Origin: Phycisphaerales bacterium
Lineage (GTDB): Bacteria; Planctomycetota; Phycisphaerae; Phycisphaerales; SM1A02
Direction of reading: 5' to 3'
DNA: 64,000 bases
Assembly (NCBI GenBank): GCA_029260575.1
Contig: JAJDDB010000016.1
Coordinates: forward strand, 1-64,000
Shown: positions 14,914 through 26,695 of the stretch, piece after piece
Layout of the letters: each line of letters opens with the position of its first letter
How positions within the stretch are numbered: the stretch's first letter is position 1
Position numbers and translations under genes: made by a program
Notes under the pieces: model-generated
The model's input: only the letters and a program-made list of their open reading frames with translations
Told to the model about the DNA's origin: nothing
Database searches by the model: none

Positions 14914-15993
14914 ATGTCCGCAGCCGACCAGACACCAACGACGCCACGCATCATTGCGCTGATGAATCAGAAGGGCGGGGTGGGCAAAACGACCACGACC
15001 GTGAACCTCGGTTCGGTGCTTTCGCAGGCGGGCAAGCGTGTCTGCCTGATCGATCTGGACCCGCAAGCCCACCTGACGCTGCACCTGGGTGTGGATGATG
15101 AGCAGATTGACTGCACGGTATATGACCTGCTGGTTGATCCGCAATGCACAGCCGAGCAGGCAATTGTGCATGCGCGCGAGAATCTTGATGCGATTCTTGC
15201 GGAAGTTGATCTGGCCGGTGCTGAGCCGGAGCTTGCCGCGGTTGATGATCGGCAGCGCATTCTTCGGCGCAAGTTCGATGTGATTGCGGATCGGTATGAC
15301 TACGTTCTGATCGATTGCCCGCCGAGCCTTGGGTTGCTGACACTGAATGCTTTGGCTTTGGCGCACGAAGTTGTCGTGCCGATGCAGGCGCATTTCCTTG
15401 CGCTACAGGGTGTGGGCAAGCTGCTGGAAACCGTCGGTTTGGTGTGTCAGCGTGTGAATCCGAAACTGCGCGTCAGTGGCGTTGTGCTGTGCATGCACGA
15501 AAGTCAGACAACACTTGCAAAGGAAGTCCTAGCTGATCTTGATGCGTTCTTTGAAGCGTCGCGACAGCAGGACGTGCCCTGGCGTGATTGTCAGGTGTTG
15601 CGCCCGCCGGTTCGTCGGAATATCAAACTCGCAGAAGCGCCGAGTTTCGGGCAGACAATTCTTGAGTATGAACCGAGCTGTCCCGGTGCGAAGGATTATG
15701 TGGAGCTCGCAGCAAGTGTAGTTGCGCTAGGCGGAGCGGCACTTGGCGTGAAGACGCACGCTGGAGCGGATGCTGCGTTGCCCATTGAAGATGATGCGGC
15801 GCAGCGGAAACGCGCTACCCCACACGCGACGGGTAATGGTGTGCCCGCGGTGAAGAGCGCTGCGGGTCAGGTGGAGCCGAAGCCGATGGATGCGCCGGTG
15901 ACGCCGGAGCAGCAGCAGGCTGCCGATGCTGCGATTCGCGCGGCGCGTGTTGCTGCACCCGAACCTGATGCAGGCGCGCAAACTGAAAAATGA
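14914..15993 (+). CDS. parA: ParA/Soj-family partition ATPase
   Basis: A 359-residue deviant Walker A ATPase: NQKGGVGKTTTTVNLG with the signature lysine, VCLIDLDPQAH for A-prime, and VLIDCPPSLGLLTLNAL for Walker B. Later comes RRNIKLAEAPSFGQTI, characteristic of chromosomal ParA/Soj. The last 85 or so residues are a low-complexity tail rich in Ala, Pro and Gln that is not part of the fold. No parB follows. Instead the stop overlaps the next start (ATGA at 15990-15993), coupling it to a VanZ-like gene and murJ. A role in positioning a cell-envelope or DNA cargo is therefore uncertain. Confidence 0.88.
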   Translation: MSAADQTPTTPRIIALMNQKGGVGKTTTTVNLGSVLSQAGKRVCLIDLDPQAHLTLHLGVDDEQIDCTVYDLLVDPQCTAEQAIVHARENLDAILAEVDLAGAEPELAAVDDRQRILRRKFDVIADRYDYVLIDCPPSLGLLTLNALALAHEVVVPMQAHFLALQGVGKLLETVGLVCQRVNPKLRVSGVVLCMHESQTTLAKEVLADLDAFFEASRQQDVPWRDCQVLRPPVRRNIKLAEAPSFGQTILEYEPSCPGAKDYVELAASVVALGGAALGVKTHAGADAALPIEDDAAQRKRATPHATGNGVPAVKSAAGQVEPKPMDAPVTPEQQQAADAAIRAARVAAPEPDAGAQTEK

Positions 15994-17156
15994 AGAGCGC
16001 TGCGCACGTGCCGGCTGCTGATGCGCCGCCGAGGAATGTCATTCGGCAGCGGGCGGTTCGGTACTGGCGGCTGGTGACGCTGGTGTATGTGATTGCGCTG
16101 ACACTGGGCACGCACTGGCCGGAGTTGCAGGTGAGCGTGGGCGACGGACCGCCGCCGGACAAGGTGCTGCATCTGTTTGCGTTCGGCGGGCTGACGCTGC
16201 TCTTGTGGCAGTGTCGGTTTGTATCGCGGGTGTTGCTTGTCGGGTTGATTGCTGCAGTGTGGGTGTTGCTGGATGAATGGACGCAGTCGCTGCCAAGTCT
16301 GAATCGGCAAAGTTCGTGGACGGATGTTGTTGCGGGGTTGGCGGGTGTGGTGTGCGCGGTGTTGTGGTTGTGGGCAACGATGCCGATAGGCGGACAACTT
16401 TCGCGCTGGCGGCGTGCGCTGTTTGATCAGATCGTTGACACGAGATTGAGCCGACTCAATGGGTGGTTGCATTTGGGTTGTATAGCAACGCTGGACGCGA
16501 TCATGGCTGCGGTGCTGAGCATCATGCTCATAGCCCCCACGCAGAAAGAGCCACAGGTAACGATTCTCATCGCATTCTGCCTCGGGTTCATCTTTGGAGT
16601 GCACGATGCGTTCAGCAAGTGGTGGCGTCAGGACGCGATACGCATGCGAGAAGCAAAACGCTGCTTCGTTTGTTGCGCAAGTTGTGCAACCGTCACATAC
16701 GAGCAATCAGGGTACGGAATATGTTCGAACTGCAGTGCGACTGTTCATGAAGCGCAGTGGAGCGCCACAGCATCGTTGTCCCGACGCCGTGTCTGGTGGC
16801 TGCGATTCTCCAGCGTATGCTTTTTTCTAATGTTCGTGGTTTGTCTGAAGCTTCTTCTTGTCATCGCTGAGTTGCTCGCAGGCTCACGCCTGGGTGATCC
16901 TCTCATTACAGTCATCAGCGAACATCGATTGGAGACCATAGTGCAATTGACGCTTGTGTGTCTACCGTTTGCTGCAGCGGTTCGAGCACATCGCGAGTTA
17001 CTCCGCAGCGGCTTTGATCTGCAAGGCAATGTGTGCGTGCAATGCGGTTATGTGCTCAAGGGCCTACCTGTCACGGGCAGCGTTGGCCGATGTCCGGAAT
17101 GTGCGGCGGAGTTCGTTCGACTGGATACATCGCAACACGGTAATGACGACACATGA
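15990..17156 (+). CDS. VanZ-like membrane protein with C-terminal zinc ribbon
   Basis: The 388-residue protein begins with a VanZ-like four-helix region (RLVTLVYVIALTLGTHWPEL, DKVLHLFAFGGLTLLLW, VLLDEWTQSLPSLNRQSSWTD). The acidic VLLDEWTQ and the His in KVLHLF are characteristic of VanZ. Further hydrophobic segments follow, a Cys-rich middle (CFVCCASCATVTYEQSGYGICSNCSA), and a terminal CVQCGYVLKGLP...GRCPEC zinc ribbon. It is translationally coupled on both sides: ATGA with parA, and ATGA with murJ at 17153. An envelope role is inferred from murJ; biochemical function is unknown. Confidence 0.8.
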   Translation: MKSAAHVPAADAPPRNVIRQRAVRYWRLVTLVYVIALTLGTHWPELQVSVGDGPPPDKVLHLFAFGGLTLLLWQCRFVSRVLLVGLIAAVWVLLDEWTQSLPSLNRQSSWTDVVAGLAGVVCAVLWLWATMPIGGQLSRWRRALFDQIVDTRLSRLNGWLHLGCIATLDAIMAAVLSIMLIAPTQKEPQVTILIAFCLGFIFGVHDAFSKWWRQDAIRMREAKRCFVCCASCATVTYEQSGYGICSNCSATVHEAQWSATASLSRRRVWWLRFSSVCFFLMFVVCLKLLLVIAELLAGSRLGDPLITVISEHRLETIVQLTLVCLPFAAAVRAHRELLRSGFDLQGNVCVQCGYVLKGLPVTGSVGRCPECAAEFVRLDTSQHGNDDT

Positions 17157-18709
17157 CCGAACGCTTTGAACATCACGCGCGGACGGTGACGCTGCTGACG
17201 CTACTCAGCCGGGCGACGGGGCTCGCGCGCGACGCCACACTGAGTCGTGTGTTCGGCGCCGGCGTGCTGATGGACTCATTCTTTTTTGCGTTCATCATTC
17301 CGAATCTCTTTCGCAGATTATTCGGAGAGGGGGCGCTGGCGGCGGCGTATCTTCCGGTCTACAGCGAACTGACGCACGACGACCCGCAGGCAGCAAAGCA
17401 GCTTGCATCCATGGTTGTTGCGCGGTTGATGATCGTGCTGGGTGCGGTGACGATCGTCGGCGAAGTGTTGCTCTATGCGTTGTCTGCGGCGCGCGGGCAT
17501 GAAGCCCCGGCGGTGTGGTTGATGATGATCATGCTGCCGTACATGCCGTTGGTGTGCTTGGTGGCGATGTTCGGCGCGATGTTGCAGGTACACGGCAGGT
17601 TCGGGCCGACAGCAGCAGCGCCGATCGTGTTGAACCTGTTGATCGTGGGCGCTGCGGTTGGTTTGAACAGCATTGCGGGCATAACTGATCGCGCGCATAT
17701 CGCCATTGTTGCGTCTGCTGTGGTGCTTGCCGGGGTGATTCAAATCGTGTGGTCGCTTACAGCACTGCGGCGGAATCCCTGGTGGACGGGGCAGCGTGAC
17801 AAGGCGCAGCAGCCGTTTCGGAGAGTGTTGCAACAGGCAGCACCGATGATCATCGGGCTGGGTGTGTTGCAACTCAATACGTTCTTTGACGGCATCATCG
17901 CAAGCTACCCCGCAACTTTTGGCGACACAATTGCAGGTGTTGCGTATCCACTTGATCTGGGCGCGATGTCGGCTGTGAGTTACGCGCAGCGGCTGTATCA
18001 ATTCCCGCTGGGGGTGTTCGGCATTGCGGTCGCGACTGCGATCTTTCCGCTGCTGAGCCGGCAGGCGAATGATGCGGATTCGTTCAGTGCGACGGTGCAG
18101 CGTGGATTGCGGCTTGTGGTGTTTATTGGATTGCCTGCAAGTGTGGGTTTGATACTTGTGCGCGAGCAACTGGCGGCGGTGATTCTGCAAGGTGGTGAAT
18201 TTACAGCAGACGATACCGAGCGCGTCGGCCGGGTGCTCCTGGGATATGCCCCTGCGATCTGGGCGTATTCGATGACACATGTGTTGACGCGGGCGTTTTA
18301 TGCGCGCGGTGATTCCAGGACAGCGATGAAGGTCGCGGTGAGCGTGGTGGCGTTGAATCTGGTATTGAACTGCACGCTGATCTGGACGCCGCTGCGCGAA
18401 GCGGGGTTGGCGTGGTCCACCGCGATCTGCGCAATTGTGCAGGTGCTGGGGCTGAGTCTGTTGAGTCGCCGCGCCGGTGTGGATGTTGTTGATGGCAGTG
18501 TGCTGCGCAGTTGGGCAAAGACGTTTGCAGCGACAGTGGCAATGGGCGCAGCAGTGGTTGTGGTGATGGGAATGTCAGCGGGTAGTGCGTCGTGGTTGGA
18601 TCAGGTGTTGCTGCTGGCGTGCGCGGTGGGAGTGGGGATGATCGTGATGTTCGGAATCGCAACGGTGCTGCACATGCCGGAGCGCTGGTGGGCGATTGGG
18701 CGGGGATAG
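17153..18709 (+). CDS. murJ: lipid II flippase MurJ (MviN)
   Basis: A 518-residue polytopic membrane protein of the MOP superfamily that flips lipid II for peptidoglycan synthesis. The N-terminus shows the family pattern LLSRATGLARDATLSRVFGAG and DSFFFAFIIPNLFRRLFGEGALAAAYLPVYSE. Later signature segments include YAQRLYQFPLGVFGIAVATAIFPLLSR and LTRAFYARGDSRTAMKV. About fourteen hydrophobic segments can be counted. It is the last gene of the parA-VanZ-murJ set; the start overlaps the preceding stop. The downstream spacer to the convergent DUF4166 gene contains one copy of a 24-bp repeat. Confidence 0.95.
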   Translation: MTERFEHHARTVTLLTLLSRATGLARDATLSRVFGAGVLMDSFFFAFIIPNLFRRLFGEGALAAAYLPVYSELTHDDPQAAKQLASMVVARLMIVLGAVTIVGEVLLYALSAARGHEAPAVWLMMIMLPYMPLVCLVAMFGAMLQVHGRFGPTAAAPIVLNLLIVGAAVGLNSIAGITDRAHIAIVASAVVLAGVIQIVWSLTALRRNPWWTGQRDKAQQPFRRVLQQAAPMIIGLGVLQLNTFFDGIIASYPATFGDTIAGVAYPLDLGAMSAVSYAQRLYQFPLGVFGIAVATAIFPLLSRQANDADSFSATVQRGLRLVVFIGLPASVGLILVREQLAAVILQGGEFTADDTERVGRVLLGYAPAIWAYSMTHVLTRAFYARGDSRTAMKVAVSVVALNLVLNCTLIWTPLREAGLAWSTAICAIVQVLGLSLLSRRAGVDVVDGSVLRSWAKTFAATVAMGAAVVVVMGMSAGSASWLDQVLLLACAVGVGMIVMFGIATVLHMPERWWAIGRG

Positions 18710-20444: not shown

Positions 20445-21812
20445 TTACGCGAGTTGCCAGTCGGCGCCGGTTCGTGTGATCGGGCGGTAAAGTGTGTCGC
20501 GTTCGACGGGTGTGAGGCCGCACTCACGGATGGCGCGCTGCAGGTCCCAGATGGTGGTTTCCTGATGCGTGGTGGTGCCGCCGACTTTGGTGATGTCGTA
20601 CCAGACGACGGTGCCATCGATGTCATCAGCGCCGCTGGTCAACATGTACTGCGCCATCTCCAGCGTCTGCATGATCCAGAATGCTTTGACGTGCGGAAAG
20701 TTATCGAGCATTAATCGGCTGATGGCGAGAGTGCGCAGGTTCTCCATGCCGGATGGGCCCGGGAGCTTTTGCAGCGCACTGTCATCGGGTATGAACGGCA
20801 ATGGGATGATTGTTTGGAAGTAGCCTTCTGCGGATGAAGGAATCCCCTCACACCCAGCCGCGCTCTCAAAGGGCGAGGGGAGTCTGGCAGTTGTGTAACT
20901 TTCATCGGGGCCGGTGAGGACGACTGCGTCATTTTCCTGCAGTGAGATGTTGTTGCGGTGTGCCCAGTCGTGCAGCGCGCGGTCTTGTTGCTCACGCAGA
21001 GTAATCATGTGTTGAATGCGGTCTGCACGGGATTCGATGTGGCCGTAGAGCATTGTTGCGTTGGAATTCATACCAAGCTCGTGCGCAGCACGATGCACTT
21101 CGAGCCACTTGCCAGCTTTGATCTTTCCTTTGAATGCTTCATCATGCACACGGTCATCGAATACTTCTGCGCCGCCGCCGGGCAATGAACCGAGGCCGGC
21201 ATCGCGAAGGTCGGCAAGAACGCTTTTGATGCCTTCGTAGCCGTCACGGGCCCGGCCGGCGATTCGCGCAAAATGCACAATCTCGACAGCGGTAAAGGCC
21301 TTGATATGCAGACGCGGCGCGGTTTGGCGAATCGCGCGGAGCATATCGAGGTAATAGTCGAACTTCAACCAGGGATGCAGGCCGCCGACGATGTGCAGTT
21401 CTGTTGCGCCTGCCCGTTCGGCTTCGCCTGCCTGTTTGATGATCTCTTCAAGTTCAAACTGGTACGCGCCATCGTCATCTTTCTTGCGATAGAACGAGCA
21501 GAACGTGCAGGAGAGCGCGCAGACGTTTGAGTAATTGATGTGGCGGTTGATGTTGAAGAACACGGTGTCGCCGTGAAGGCGCGTGCGCACCAAGTGTGCA
21601 AGCTCGCAGACGGTCCAGATGTCGGGTGTGTTGTAGAGCAGCAGGCCGTCGCCGGCTGTAAGTCGAATACCCGAGGTGACTTTCTCAATGATCGGCTGCA
21701 GGTTCGAATCGAACGGTTGCAGCGTGCGAGCGGTCGCAGCGCTGGGAGGCGAAACGGTCGTGCGCTGTTTGCGTGCAGCGTTGAACTGGTCTGGGGAAAC
21801 AGTAGGAATCAT
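20445..21812 (-). CDS. mqnE: aminofutalosine synthase MqnE (radical SAM)
   Basis: A 455-residue radical SAM enzyme that joins the chorismate-derived enolpyruvyl-benzoate to the adenosyl radical in futalosine-dependent menaquinone synthesis. The [4Fe-4S] cysteines are Cys98, Cys102 and Cys105 (NVCALSCTFCSF). Other family segments are ELHIVGGLHPWLKFDYYL, GMNSNATMLYGHIE and GTVVWYDITKVGG. About 25 residues near position 305-330 (including LPSPFESAAGCEGIPSSAE) look inserted and are encoded by a palindromic element. ATG 21812 is the first plausible start. Other mqn genes are not in the window. Confidence 0.92.
   Translation of the reverse strand: MIPTVSPDQFNAARKQRTTVSPPSAATARTLQPFDSNLQPIIEKVTSGIRLTAGDGLLLYNTPDIWTVCELAHLVRTRLHGDTVFFNINRHINYSNVCALSCTFCSFYRKKDDDGAYQFELEEIIKQAGEAERAGATELHIVGGLHPWLKFDYYLDMLRAIRQTAPRLHIKAFTAVEIVHFARIAGRARDGYEGIKSVLADLRDAGLGSLPGGGAEVFDDRVHDEAFKGKIKAGKWLEVHRAAHELGMNSNATMLYGHIESRADRIQHMITLREQQDRALHDWAHRNNISLQENDAVVLTGPDESYTTARLPSPFESAAGCEGIPSSAEGYFQTIIPLPFIPDDSALQKLPGPSGMENLRTLAISRLMLDNFPHVKAFWIMQTLEMAQYMLTSGADDIDGTVVWYDITKVGGTTTHQETTIWDLQRAIRECGLTPVERDTLYRPITRTGADWQLA
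20844..20880. repeat. palindromic element inserted in frame within mqnE
   Basis: CCCCTC (20844-20849) and GAGGGG (20875-20880) bracket CACCCAGCCGCGCTCTCAAAGGGC. The layout is like dispersed intergenic palindromes of the type CCCCTCACCCC...CTCTCCC...AAAGGG...GAGGGG found in many genomes. Here it lies inside coding sequence and keeps the mqnE reading frame. Confidence 0.6.
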
Positions 21813-22068
21813 TGGGCACTCGACGGGTTTGGGTACAGATCGTACAGGCTGCAGGACCGGCACATCGTACGCCACGGCAGGTCCGAAGTCCGCAACGGAT
21901 TTGCAGTCGAGGCGAGGCATGACGGTTACGCGAGCAGCGTATTCGGGGGGTGTGGTGCGGGCGGTGAAGGGTGCAACCAGCTTCGACGATATGGGCTGTG
22001 ACACGGGCCGGTGTTGTTCGACAACCGGCCTGCCTTCCTCCCAACTGCATCTGGATGGACACGACGCA

Positions 22069-24828
22069 ATGCACGAGCACCAGCCCCCCCAGCCGTCCTC
22101 GCCCGAACCCGACCAGCAGGCAAACGAGCAGCAGTCGCACACCCAGGCAGAATCGAACGAATGTTCGACCGGCGAGGATGTGATGAACATCCTTGCAGAT
22201 GTTGAACAGAAGTTCGACAAGCTGCGCAAGGTGCAGGAGTCGCATGAGCGGGAGTTGACCTCGCTGCATGATCGGCGCCAAGCGCTTGATGAAGCGGAGC
22301 GCGAGCTGGATGAAGAGCTCAGCAAACTTGTCGCTCAGCAAAATGAAGTGCAACAGCAGCAGCAGGCAATGCGCGCCCAGGGGCAAGGGCTGGCAGACGC
22401 GCGTGCTGAGCTTGAAACGCAGCAGCACGAATTGCTCGAACAGCGCCAGCATCTGGAACAGCTCGATCAATCCCTGAGCACACAGCGCGAGCAATTGCAG
22501 CAGCAGAATGAAGCGGCTACGCAGGATCGAGTGGAACTTGAACAACACCAGCAGCAGTGGAGCGAGCGGCAGGCTGCAACGGACAGGGATTTTCAGGAGA
22601 AGCAGCAAGCCTTCGAGCACCGTCTGCAACAGTTGCAGCAGCAGGAACAGGATCACCAGCACACAACGGAAACGCTGCAGCAACTCGAACAGGAACTCAA
22701 CACTCAGCAGTCACAATTCGCAGACCAAAAGCAACAGTGGCAGCAGCAGCGCGATGCGGAAGAACAGGAATTCGCGGCGCGGGGCGAGGCGCTGGATGAA
22801 CGTGCAGCGCAGCTCGATGCATTCAACGGAGATCTGCAGCAGCAGCAGGATCAATTGACCAAACTGCAGGAAGAAGCTGCGCAGAAACAGCAGGCGCTGG
22901 ACGAACGCAGCAGCACTTTGGAAGCGGAACACCGGGAATTGCAGAACCAGTTCGAAGCTGCGCAGCAGAGTCAGCAGCAGGCAATGGAGGAACTGGAGAC
23001 CCAGAGCCGGCGGATGGCAGAGGCTGAGCAGCGGGCCGAGCAGTTTGAGCATGATCTTCGAGAAGCGATGCAGCAGCGTGACACTGCCCAGCAGCAGGCA
23101 GATGAACTGGCTCTGAAGGTTGATGATCTTTCGCAGCACAGCGAACAACAGCAGGCATCGCTGCATGAGAGCGAGCAACGTCTGTCAACTGCGGGTGAAA
23201 AGCTGCGGCATTTTGCTGAAATTCTGAATGAACAGTCAACGCAACTCGAACGCGGAGCTTCGGCGCTGGCAATGGTGGAGGAGCAGCGGCAGCGCATTGA
23301 GAAACTCAACAAGCAGCTCGCAGAAGCCACGCGGGCGGGCAATCCGGAAGAATTGCAACGGCGCGATCGGCGGATCGGCGAGCTGACCGAAGCATTGCAG
23401 CAGGCTCGTGGGCAGATCGGTGTGGACAGCAACTCTTCAGAACTGCAGATCCAGATTGCTGAGCTCTCAAAGCGTAACGACCAATTGACATCAGAGTTGG
23501 AAGAAGCACGCCTGGCTGAGCAGCAGACAACTGAAGAGCTGCATCAGCTTGAAGCGCGGCGTGCGGAAGCGTCGACAGCAGATCATTCGCATGTGGTGGA
23601 AGCGATCAAGGCGGAGCATGCGCACTCAGTTGAGTCAATGCAAGGCGAACACAAGCAGAGCCTGCAGGAGTATCGAACAAAGCGCGATGCGCAGGTGCGT
23701 TCGATGCAGGAGCAGCTTTCCAAATTGCAGCAGTCGCTGATCGAGGCAAAGCAGCAGGTTGCTGGCAGCGGCGAATCAGCAGTTTCTGTCAAAGCGTTTC
23801 AAACGCGAATTGCGGAATTGGAAGCATCGCTGGAGAAGGCAAAAGCCAATGATCCAAAGCAGTTGGATGAAAAGCTTCGTCGCAAGGTGAAGAAGATCAA
23901 TGCAGTCTCGCAGCACCTGTTACGCAGGCGGCATCGGCTTAAGGCAGCTCGGCGGTTGATGGAAGCCCGACAACAACAAGCGGTACAGCACATTGCAGCG
24001 ACGCACACAAACGGCACGAACGCCAGCCGGGAGGAACTGCAGCGGCAGGTGCGCGCACTCGAACTGCAGCGTAGCGAACTTTCGGAAGTGCGCGATTTCT
24101 TAGCGAATTCTGAGAAAGAATTGATGCAGCGATGGGCGCGGCCGCGCGCGATCGCCAGCGTCGGATGGTTAGTGTTCCTGACGATCTTTGCAGCTGCGTC
24201 GAGTTGGTTCGCAACTGACTACATCTCGCCGACGCCTGTGACTGCATCGGTGGCATTTGCGCCACAGGCGGACAATCCGATGGAATTCACCGCAGAAGAC
24301 GCTGCCGCGTGGCAACGCTGGCATGCGGAATACATGTTGAGCAGCGACTTCCAGAAGGCGCTTGCCAAGCGGTGTGCGGATCGAAACTTCGAACCGTATG
24401 GCAATGTGAATGAACTGACCGCACGGCTGAGCAACGATCTCAATCTGGATATGAGTGAACCAAAGAAGATCACTGTTTCGCTTGAAGGTTTGAACAGCGA
24501 TCAGACAAAACTGCTGCTTGACATGTTTGCAACAACGCTTGCATTGGAATCGAGCAGGCACCTTGATCGCGGCAACGACACCGCACGTGCTGTTCCGCTG
24601 GGCGAGCGCAAGGAAAACGGCAGAGTGGCGTACGCGACAATGCTGCCGGAACCGGGTTTTGTGGAGCAGATCAAGACGGTCGCACCACTGTTCGGCGGCA
24701 TCATGGCCGGCCTGCTGTTGCTGATGATCGTTTTGTACTTCCTGCTCGCGCGTTCAAAGCGCGTCTTCGAGAGTGAAGCTGCAGTCTTTGGCAACACCAC
24801 GAGTGAAGGCGAATTCTTGTCTGTGTAA
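22069..24828 (+). CDS. giant coiled-coil protein with C-terminal two-helix, Wzz-like membrane module
   Basis: A 919-residue protein. After a Gln/Pro/Ser-rich N-terminus (about residues 1-35), residues 40-680 form an almost uninterrupted, Gln/Glu-rich coiled coil, e.g. RAELETQQHELLEQRQHLEQ. TM1 lies at about 694-716 (AIASVGWLVFLTIFAAASSW) and TM2 at about 876-897 (GGIMAGLLLLMIVLYFLLA). Between them are some 155 residues resembling a polysaccharide chain-length (Wzz) periplasmic part: ELTARLSNDLNLDMSEPKKI and VSLEGLNSDQTKLLLDMF. This topology puts the coil in the cytoplasm. Function unknown. It is divergent from mqnE. ATG 22069 is the most likely start. Confidence 0.75.
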   Translation: MHEHQPPQPSSPEPDQQANEQQSHTQAESNECSTGEDVMNILADVEQKFDKLRKVQESHERELTSLHDRRQALDEAERELDEELSKLVAQQNEVQQQQQAMRAQGQGLADARAELETQQHELLEQRQHLEQLDQSLSTQREQLQQQNEAATQDRVELEQHQQQWSERQAATDRDFQEKQQAFEHRLQQLQQQEQDHQHTTETLQQLEQELNTQQSQFADQKQQWQQQRDAEEQEFAARGEALDERAAQLDAFNGDLQQQQDQLTKLQEEAAQKQQALDERSSTLEAEHRELQNQFEAAQQSQQQAMEELETQSRRMAEAEQRAEQFEHDLREAMQQRDTAQQQADELALKVDDLSQHSEQQQASLHESEQRLSTAGEKLRHFAEILNEQSTQLERGASALAMVEEQRQRIEKLNKQLAEATRAGNPEELQRRDRRIGELTEALQQARGQIGVDSNSSELQIQIAELSKRNDQLTSELEEARLAEQQTTEELHQLEARRAEASTADHSHVVEAIKAEHAHSVESMQGEHKQSLQEYRTKRDAQVRSMQEQLSKLQQSLIEAKQQVAGSGESAVSVKAFQTRIAELEASLEKAKANDPKQLDEKLRRKVKKINAVSQHLLRRRHRLKAARRLMEARQQQAVQHIAATHTNGTNASREELQRQVRALELQRSELSEVRDFLANSEKELMQRWARPRAIASVGWLVFLTIFAAASSWFATDYISPTPVTASVAFAPQADNPMEFTAEDAAAWQRWHAEYMLSSDFQKALAKRCADRNFEPYGNVNELTARLSNDLNLDMSEPKKITVSLEGLNSDQTKLLLDMFATTLALESSRHLDRGNDTARAVPLGERKENGRVAYATMLPEPGFVEQIKTVAPLFGGIMAGLLLLMIVLYFLLARSKRVFESEAAVFGNTTSEGEFLSV

Positions 24829-25302: not shown

Positions 25303-25995
25303 TTACTCAGCGGCTTGGGCTGCTTCTGCGGCGCGTTGCATTAATTCAGCCAGTCGGCGCTGACGGTAGTCATCGATTTCGATGATGTCGGGCGCAATTT
25401 CGTCGGTTGGTAACGTGCGCTGCGTGCTGGGTATCGGCTGCATGCGATGTGCGTCTTCGCCGGTCTGTTCGAACTGTTGTCTGCGCTGATCGGTCGGGGA
25501 CGATTCGGTCGACGCCACATTGTCGTTGTTACTCAACCTGACGCGCGTGTTCCAGCGCAATGGTTCGCCTGAGATGACGGCGGGCTGTTGCTGTGTTGCG
25601 TTGGGGTCGCCGGGGAATTGTTCGAACGGCGAGGGATCGCCGATGTAGAACACCGTTCCCGGTGGAACCGCAGCAGAGCCGTTGGATGCGTATACCGATC
25701 GCGGATAGACAGCGTACAGCGCGCCCTGAGCCCGCATGAAATTCGTGCTGCCGGGCACCTGATAGACCCTGCTGAAGTCGTTGGATTGATGCAATCCGGG
25801 ACTGAACGAGCGCAGACTTCCATTCAATGCGCCGACGTCTTCCACACCTTCATCGACAACACGCAGATCGACGAATTGCGGGTCGTACTGTGTTGCCGGT
25901 GTCAGTTCCAACGGCTCTGCAGCGGATTGTCCGTGTGCGAAACCGGCGCACCACACGGTGGCGAGTGTGACCATAATGTTGCGCAGTGCTGTCAT
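25303..25995 (-). CDS. secreted protein, member 2 of a tandem paralogous pair
   Basis: The 230-residue product has a signal peptide (MTALRNIMVTLATVWCAGFAHGQ). Its core is shared with the upstream neighbour: DVGALNGSLRSFSPGL, FSRVYQVPGSTNFMRAQGAL, AVYPRS and VPPGTVFYIGDPS. A Gln/Pro-rich C-terminal part with a terminal helix (QRRLAELMQRAAEAAQ) follows. I recognise no family. An extracellular or periplasmic location is inferred. It lies 88 bases downstream of its paralogue and is probably co-transcribed. Confidence 0.65.
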   Translation of the reverse strand: MTALRNIMVTLATVWCAGFAHGQSAAEPLELTPATQYDPQFVDLRVVDEGVEDVGALNGSLRSFSPGLHQSNDFSRVYQVPGSTNFMRAQGALYAVYPRSVYASNGSAAVPPGTVFYIGDPSPFEQFPGDPNATQQQPAVISGEPLRWNTRVRLSNNDNVASTESSPTDQRRQQFEQTGEDAHRMQPIPSTQRTLPTDEIAPDIIEIDDYRQRRLAELMQRAAEAAQAAE

Positions 25996-26083: not shown

Positions 26084-26695
26084 TCACTGATCTCGCTCAG
26101 CAGACGCGTCTTTGTGGTGTTGGAATAACGCGCGAAGCTGCTGCACGCGAATCTCAAGGGCTTGTCTTTGAGTTGGTGACACGTGCCCAGCGGCGTCTTC
26201 GGCGCTGCTGTGATCTGCGCGGCGGGCGTTCGGTTCAGGCGATGGTCCACCAGGTCCGGTGCGCGTGTTGATTCGCGTGTTCGAGATGCGTGTGTCCCAG
26301 CGCAGTGCGGCGCCGGGGAGGTGATCGGTTGACTGTGCGGACTCGTCGAGTGATGTCTGGCCGATGTAAAACACCGTACCCGCAGGGATGACAGGCGTTA
26401 CGCCCCAAGGCGACTGTGTGTACGACGCCTGAGATTGTGGGTAGACCGCGCGGAGCGCACCCTGCACGCGCATGAGTTGGTTGTCGCTGCCGGGAACACG
26501 GTAGACCTGATCAAAGCTGGTCGGCACTTCAAGTCCGGGCTGAATGATTCTCAAACTGTTGGAGAGCAGGCCGACATCGCTGACGCGTTGATCGAGCGGC
26601 TGAAGATTAATCTGCAATGGCGCAACGGATTGCGCGAATACAAGCGATCCGCACGCGAATGCTGCAAGCGTCACGATGGTTCGAATCTTTCGCAT
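26084..26695 (-). CDS. secreted protein, member 1 of a tandem paralogous pair
   Basis: A 203-residue protein with a signal peptide (MRKIRTIVTLAAFACGSLVFAQ). The core aligns with the downstream gene: DVGLLSNSLRIIQPGL, FDQVYRVPGSDNQLMRVQGAL, AVYPQS and VIPAGTVFYIGQ. The C-terminal region is Ser/Pro-rich and ends with a helical segment (ALEIRVQQLRALFQHHKD). The two genes look like an old tandem duplication. No catalytic motif is seen; the conserved PxGTVFYIG suggests a small beta domain. Confidence 0.65.
   Translation of the reverse strand: MRKIRTIVTLAAFACGSLVFAQSVAPLQINLQPLDQRVSDVGLLSNSLRIIQPGLEVPTSFDQVYRVPGSDNQLMRVQGALRAVYPQSQASYTQSPWGVTPVIPAGTVFYIGQTSLDESAQSTDHLPGAALRWDTRISNTRINTRTGPGGPSPEPNARRADHSSAEDAAGHVSPTQRQALEIRVQQLRALFQHHKDASAERDQ

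Follow-up and report, generated by a model that had tools for sequence, protein, structure and literature searches.

A long coiled-coil protein of the Phycisphaerales with a membrane module that looks derived from polysaccharide co-polymerases

The stretch of DNA analysed here (the window) comprises 64 000 nucleotides of a Phycisphaerales bacterium (assembly GCA_029260575.1, contig JAJDDB010000016.1, positions 1 to 64 000 of the forward strand). It carries a gene for a 919-residue protein, the window protein, in which a long coiled coil precedes a membrane module of two transmembrane (TM) helices. On profile comparison and structure prediction, this module looks derived from the Wzz/Wzc/KpsE chain-length regulators, the polysaccharide co-polymerases (PCPs). 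No account of such a protein was found among the papers listed in searches of the open PubMed Central literature, and it may be described elsewhere. The gene has the following features, in window coordinates.

22069..24828, plus strand: whole gene, 919 amino acids and a stop codon; one open reading frame (ORF) of like architecture lies in each of 40 related loci fetched.
22177..22233, plus strand: N-terminal tip motif, residues 37–55, DVMNILADVEQKFDKLRKV; family consensus DVLDLIADVExQLxRLRxA, from motif scoring in 41 members.
22234..24126, plus strand: Gln/Glu-rich heptad coiled coil, about residues 56–686, predicted to be cytoplasmic; from the 3.5-residue periodicity.
23914..23940, plus strand: juxtamembrane HLLRRRHRL block, residues 616–624; in the family alignment A1 its R5 is invariant and its R8 and L9 are nearly so.
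24127..24141, plus strand: QRWAR, residues 687–691, a positively charged stop ahead of TM1; from alignments A1 and A4 and the positive-inside count.
24148..24204, plus strand: TM1, residues 694–712; from hydropathy and an AlphaFold helix.
24205..24687, plus strand: loop 713–873, a predicted periplasmic co-polymerase dome, crown hairpin absent; from AlphaFold 2 confidence, Foldseek, VIA and hhalign.
24688..24744, plus strand: TM2, residues 874–892; from hydropathy and AlphaFold.
24745..24825, plus strand: short tail of 27 residues, predicted to be cytoplasmic; from Lys/Arg counts around TM2.

The reading frame stays open 5′ of the ATG at 22069, as far as a GTG at 21676. Counted from this ATG, the family N-terminal motif begins at residue 37, which is consistent with a start there. 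TM segments were called from Kyte–Doolittle hydropathy over 19 residues (mean of at least 1.5). There are exactly two, at 694–712 and 874–892, with 161 residues between them, and the maximum ahead of TM1 is 0.45. The neighbourhoods of 40 relatives were fetched out of the 46 other genomes matched by BLAST (see below); with the window they give 41 loci, in which the whole architecture was read. The order coil, TM1, loop and TM2 is found within one ORF in all 40 relatives, with loops of 129–161 residues. A preliminary description, made from the letters and ORFs of the window, had proposed some 640 residues of coil, then TM1, about 155 residues and TM2 at the C-terminus. Hydropathy, periodicity and the related loci confirm this order, and both lengths are correct to within a few residues.

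Residues 37–660 contain 18.6% glutamine, 13.9% glutamate and two prolines. Their hydrophobic periodicity at 3.5 residues lies 11.0 standard deviations (s.d.) above composition shuffles, with no excess at 3.0, 3.2 or 3.75–4.0; this is therefore a genuine heptad coil. Six relatives tested give a heptad signal of 1.2–12.4 s.d., the weakest coming from a member (L061) whose N-terminus is wrongly extended. The length of the coil is variable: the distance from motif to TM1 is 298–795 residues in 40 members (median 528), and 657 in the window protein. At 0.1485 nm per residue, straight coils would measure about 44–118 nm, and that of the window protein about 98 nm. The heads of SMC/Rad50 ATPases are not found: NCBIfam SMC_prok_B scores 33.4 bits against a cut-off of 567, with its best stretch at 256–502, inside the coil.

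Short sequence elements ahead of TM1 recur in the family. The tip motif scores above every control site from the second half of the coil in 40/41 members. Its median score is 24.4, against 8.0–9.0 after training on shuffled first halves; the same training on the second half of the coil yields a median of 11.2 and a highest single site of 19.2. Mean pairwise identity is 35% inside the motif and 10–18% beside it. Nearer to the membrane, the pattern RxxR[LIMV] is present in 38/41 members, and an RRWA-type motif stands directly before TM1 in 18/41.

Counts of lysine and arginine around TM1 place the N-terminus and the coil inside in 39 of the 41 members, with one tie and one opposed. These residues are richer after TM2 than before it in 35 members, equal in four and fewer in two, which places the C-terminus inside. 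The predicted topology is that of the PCPs, with two TM helices, both termini inside and a periplasmic domain between. The coil is therefore predicted from the positive charges to lie in the cytoplasm, before TM1, as the preliminary description had it; an external coil is not what the charges indicate.

Scanned singly against Pfam and NCBIfam, the window protein has no Wzz match and reaches the cut-off of no curated model. In individual scans of 40 members, four touch PF02706 (best E 0.029) and one touches GNVR/PF13807 (E 0.013); these values fall short, and the cut-off of neither model is reached among the 40. The family taken as a whole behaves differently. Its profile (A1, an alignment of 40 members) was compared by hhalign with 31 Wzc/GumC-type proteins of the order, namely 20 whose PF02706 match exceeds the cut-off, 10 with a match below it but at E 0.001 or better, and the Wzc-type protein of the window's own genome. 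The region from TM1 to TM2 aligned with a probability of 97.5% (score 77.7, 147 columns) and the loop by itself with 95.8% (score 53.1, 122 columns). Twenty column shuffles of each scored at most 12.9 and 12.3, respectively, with a probability of at most 0.4%, and reversed controls scored 21.9 and 10.5. By hmmsearch, 5/31 of these proteins scored E 0.01 or better, and none of 961 decoys was better than E 0.41; at E 10 or better, 20/31 were found against 52/961 decoys. PF02706 is over its cut-off in five of six distant matches of the family profile that were scanned.

Smaller features of the module were also counted. At least one proline lies within the 22 residues before TM2 in 37/41 members, and two or more in 26/41; a GxxxG motif is present in TM2 in 26/41. 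The AbrB model PF05145 scores 12.5–16.8 bits against a cut-off of 29.2, with its best stretch at TM2. No bacterial tyrosine kinase (BY-kinase) domain was found: only the 27-residue tail follows TM2, Pfam gives no kinase or P-loop family, and NCBIfam gives only SMC/Rad50-type matches to the coil.

The last 262 residues were modelled by AlphaFold, with a predicted local distance difference test score (pLDDT) of 81.2 and a predicted template modelling score of 0.58. Block means of pLDDT are 77–94 over model residues 61–190 and 62–79 over 191–220. The end of the coil continues through TM1 as one unbroken helix. Foldseek returned 27 matches at E 1e-3 or better for this model, all of them chains E–L of KpsMT–KpsE entries, which we take as KpsE; the first 41 matches are all KpsE, WzzE or Wzc. 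The first 17 matches of VIA-align are all Wzc or KpsE (Z 12.5–10.5, root mean square deviation (r.m.s.d.) 6.6–8.6 over 168–196 residues), and FepE is matched with Z 8.5 over 120 residues. A second member (L142), which comes from another family of the order and is 25% identical to the window protein, was also modelled. It gave 58 Foldseek matches at E 1e-3 or better, of which the best 50 are all KpsE or Wzc. The alpha/beta dome fold of the PCPs is thus recovered both by prediction and by profile.

In KpsE, the order is TM1, dome and, ahead of TM2, the last strand, with the crown hairpin as an insertion between them (PMC11041684). In the window model, a helix spans 153–176, a strand comes next at 182 and TM2 begins at 207; the corresponding elements of the second model are 154–174, 184 and 202. 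The crown is absent, because the gap between the last helix of the dome and the strand after it is only five and nine residues in the two models, and an elongated periplasmic helical hairpin with coiled coil is seen in neither. The Wzz similarity that had been suspected between the helices is upheld, with a refinement. It escapes a search with the single protein, but the family profile aligns with Wzc/GumC and both predicted structures match KpsE/Wzc first; the dome and its two flanking helices are common to both, and the periplasmic hairpin of ordinary Wzz is missing. As the crown, the matches to curated models and the gene context of PCPs are all lacking, we set the protein outside the co-polymerases proper, as a derivative.

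BLAST with the last 263 residues matched 47/298 genomes of the class, all 47 of them within the 65 genomes of the same order. Profile A1 matched 89/121 genomes of the order; one (G078) was matched only via an ordinary Wzc, which leaves 88. The best 6 (phylum), 20 (order) or 24 (the window's taxonomic family) candidates per genome were scored, and absences may be misses. Outside the order, profile matches occur in 12 of 392 genomes of the phylum. Five of these were inspected: four (G350, G461, G485 and G585) carry PF02706 over the cut-off, three of them also a P-loop, and the fifth (G008) has no Pfam match. Two full-length matches are present in 4/121 genomes of the order (G060, G653, G655 and G675); a second profile match in G201 was rejected as spurious, being a multi-TM, transporter-like protein. 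Internal TGA codons in several relatives were considered as a sign of a code change and proved to be none, TGA being the ordinary gene-end stop in the seven genomes read. A search of sequence-record contigs with alignment A4 found 15 loci, where the window protein alone found none. Among them is WYBR01000067.1 (L141), a record titled Vicinamibacteraceae, whose copy is 79% identical to that of planctomycete L142; it is probably a misbinned contig.

The neighbourhoods of the 41 loci were surveyed by all-against-all comparison of ORFs; families present in at least five loci were retained. No same-strand neighbour is conserved across the order. Four same-strand families (2, 4, 8 and 9) are antisense to families 3/22 and 5/6, in 26/27, 27/27, 16/17 and 16/16 members. 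The commonest immediate neighbour (17/41 loci) is a divergent MqnE-like radical-SAM gene, which we place outside the system; in the window it lies at 20448..21827 on the minus strand (PF04055, and PF19288 for CofH_C). Other neighbours are an aldose epimerase (8/41), an oligopeptide ABC protein on either side (12/41) and a convergent gene for an extracytoplasmic function sigma factor (16/41). These recurrent neighbours, each named from a Pfam scan of one member, are read as clade synteny. No polysaccharide polymerase or exporter is found among the conserved neighbours of the 41 loci, as far as these could be named, or among the ten window neighbours scanned, which also lack KpsMT; MurJ lies upstream in 11 loci.

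Two further groups of genes near the locus may be recorded. At 14914–18709 on the plus strand of the window, a ParA-like gene, a VanZ-like gene (below cut-off) and MurJ occur, and all three families stand together upstream in 11/41 loci, each of the 11 in the window's own taxonomic family. Just downstream of the coiled-coil gene and convergent with it, adjacent genes at 25303–25995 and 26084–26695 on the minus strand encode proteins of 230 and 203 amino acids. The two look similar by eye, form family 30 of the ORF comparison and match nothing in Pfam at E 0.001.

Genomes G690 and G699, from two genera, have additional profile matches, most of which stop after TM1. In seven such paralogues the coil, the RRWA-type block and a pair of hydrophobic helices are retained (in L112, TM1 is just under the threshold), and the ORFs of two of them (L111 and L112) are cut by a contig edge. 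The loops of these seven measure 18–23 residues, whereas those of the main copies in these genomes have 144 and 147. The coil and its anchor can thus occur in the absence of a dome, and this suggests that the shared function lies in the cytoplasmic part.

Taken together, these observations incline us, with some reserve, to the view that a PCP membrane module was converted into an anchor for a coiled-coil scaffold in the cytoplasm. By analogy with Wzz, Wzc and KpsE, the dome would lie in the periplasm and gather several chains at one membrane site; parallel coils would run some 44–118 nm into the cytoplasm (about 98 nm for a straight coil in the window protein), and the tip motif would bind a cytoplasmic partner. 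In this way, a structure in the cytoplasm would be kept at a fixed distance from a selected place on the membrane. Control of chain length has probably been lost or become secondary, since the crown is gone, no polymerase or exporter is a conserved neighbour and some paralogues lack the dome. The proposal in the preliminary description of a long scaffold attached to an envelope machine can be retained as to the long coil on a PCP-like anchor; attachment to a machine may be considered only conditionally, as there is no conserved partner gene and dome-less paralogues exist.

Several observations weigh against the anchored-scaffold view. Taken by itself, the dome is also similar to HMG-CoA reductase (Z 9.2, r.m.s.d. 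2.5 over 97 residues), and the Foldseek TM-scores to KpsE are low (0.26–0.39 by query length). The Wzc-type protein of the same genome, taken singly against a 16-sequence profile of the family (A5), aligns over 46 columns with a probability of 9.7. Oligomerisation is presumed by analogy with the homologues. W133 and L202 of A1 are nearly invariant and the main copies retain the dome, so the dome must still matter. The tip-motif scores of the dome-less paralogues are –6.1 to 15.8, and those of the main copies in the same two genomes 0.4 and 7.1. Finally, MurJ (family 15), the lipid II (envelope-polymer) flippase, lies upstream on the same strand in 11/41 loci at about 1.5–5.6 kb. All these loci belong to the window's own family, and MurJ is directly upstream in three (L043, L055 and L064; about 1.5–1.8 kb between midpoints).

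The distribution of the protein was compared with that of flagellin (PF00669) in the 101 genomes of the window's family. Both are present in 50 genomes, the protein only in six, flagellin only in eight and neither in 37; by genus the counts are 29, 1, 2 and 13 of 45. The association was examined by the Pagel test on an rpoB tree of 80 of the 101 genomes, for which the ORF most like that of the window genome was chosen; 14 genomes had no rpoB match and seven were excluded for partial or duplicate coverage. The likelihood ratio (LR) is 15.2 (p 0.0042). It is 16.1 (p 0.0028) with 66 genomes, after 14 were dropped for low completeness or fragmentation, and 21.1 (p 0.0003) with 47 genomes, one per genus and state; some fitted rates are at their bounds. 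Counted by eye, some six distinct parts of the tree have neither. One observation made with this marker is that the rpoB match of G686 (L241) is split over two open frames of 1014 and 414 amino acids.

Genome reduction confounds this link, and flagellated genomes without the protein exist. It is possible that the joint loss reflects genome streamlining only and that the protein is a general linker of envelope and cytoplasm, an explanation that is compatible with the scaffold. Streamlining is a serious rival because freshwater Phycisphaerae are reported to have small genomes (mean 2.6 Mb; PMC6461901). In 11/13 of the genera with neither protein nor flagellin the mean genome size is 1.8–2.7 Mb, and size carries its own weight in a logistic fit. 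In the same fit, however, the coefficient of flagellin is still 3.1 after genome size, and two larger genomes, g486 (3.7 Mb) and g498 (4.2 Mb), lack both. Within size classes, the counts in the order given above are 14/1/0/15 for genomes of 2.5–3.0 Mb, and there is no significant excess below 2.5 Mb (2/1/5/20, p 0.15) or above 3.0 Mb (34/4/3/2, p 0.14).

Alternatively, the protein could be a still-working co-polymerase that acts in chain-length control or export and is regulated or positioned by its coil from the cytoplasm, which we regard as unlikely. In 41/41 loci the main gene retains the dome together with the two TM helices, which would agree with such a role, as would the MurJ genes upstream. 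So would the numbers of exporters and co-polymerases: Wza-type exporters are present in 64/66 genomes of the order and PF02706 in 27/66. The latter count is too low, however. In the window genome, a Wza-type Poly_export protein, an exosortase, a 1594-residue protein and a Wzc-type protein occur together on another contig. This Wzc-type protein (L153:332-2533) has the P-loop family AAA_31 over the cut-off and GNVR below it (E 0.0022), and PF02706 is not listed; co-polymerases are thus undercounted here by PF02706, which misses it. The idea that the window protein is the missing co-polymerase of its genome's own export locus had been considered because this genome has Wza and no PF02706 or GNVR match at E 0.001, and was ruled out by this Wzc-type protein near Wza and the exosortase. 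Against a working co-polymerase also stand the lack of a crown hairpin in both models, the lack of a polymerase or exporter family conserved beside the gene, and Wza-bearing genomes, such as G155 and G197, in which no member was detected.

A more specific form of the scaffold would be a landmark of motility or of the cell pole, which places or supports flagella or is needed in a swarmer stage. The co-occurrence with flagellin, its significance in all three Pagel tests and the roughly six parts of the tree without both speak for it. We nevertheless think it decidedly doubtful. Outside the window's family, the protein went undetected in 15/85 genomes (G078 counted as none) though flagellin is present in 84/85, and genome g7 keeps the protein without flagellin. 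The association is not significant below 2.5 Mb or above 3.0 Mb, some of the fitted rates lie at their bounds, and the comparison covered flagellin and MreB, which is uninformative (99/101 genomes). No flagellar gene was found among the ten window neighbours scanned. A broader version of the anchored scaffold, an order-wide cytoskeletal tether, is speculative and likewise seems improbable to us: the dome ring would label one site on the membrane (in the motile cell probably the pole), and bundled coils of lineage-specific length would present the tip motif tens of nanometres inside, where it would dock a motility or pole component.

It is very unlikely that the likeness to PCPs is convergent and that an unrelated, sensor-like alpha/beta domain lies between the two helices: HMG-CoA reductase and aIF2/eIF2 alpha do match the dome alone, the window protein is under every curated cut-off and Wzz matches among 40 members reach E 0.029 at best, but the profile match is collinear and includes TM1 with controls near zero, PCP proteins come first in three structure comparisons of two members, and searches with the family profile recover PF02706 proteins from other families within the phylum.

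If the scaffold is as we suggest, the membrane ring of one machine has apparently been reused as an anchor. If the tether were also correct, part of a polysaccharide machine would have become a scaffold that organises the cell, and the dome-less forms of two genera would be a secondary expansion. In either case, the protein is a mostly single-copy, widespread and clearly bounded target for the arrangement of envelope and cytoplasm in the Phycisphaerales, an order of little-known cell organisation, and its co-loss with flagellin makes one function directly testable.

Membrane-anchored polar scaffolds are known from Caulobacter, in which PodJ and TipN have a long coiled coil that is tied to the membrane by one segment and lies in the cytoplasm, as is predicted for the window protein. 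The periplasmic parts of PodJ and TipN are not known to be PCP domes. Among the co-polymerases, the best Foldseek match of both models is KpsE, the class-3 PCP of the KpsMT capsule exporter (PDB 8tsi and 8tsw; PMC11041684). It likewise has two TM helices around an alpha/beta dome, with the last strand just before TM2. KpsE differs in its crown hairpin and in surrounding an ABC transporter (same source), whereas the window protein lacks a crown and has a coil of several hundred residues before TM1. The class-2 proteins Wzc and GumC (Wzc with a BY-kinase; PDB 7nhr and 9r62) share the collinear TM1 and dome, in profile and in structure; the long helices of Wzc are periplasmic and its kinase follows TM2, whereas the helices of the window protein precede TM1 and a 27-residue tail follows TM2. 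The class-1 proteins WzzB, WzzE and FepE (PDB 6rbg, 8p3p and 3b8n; PMC7809406) have the same dome fold and TM arrangement, and WzzB is described in that source with about 15 disordered cytoplasmic N-terminal residues and an alpha0 helix, against some 690 residues in the window protein. Co-polymerases of classes 1–3 thus carry their long helices in the periplasm, and here a far longer coil is predicted on the opposite side of the same membrane module.

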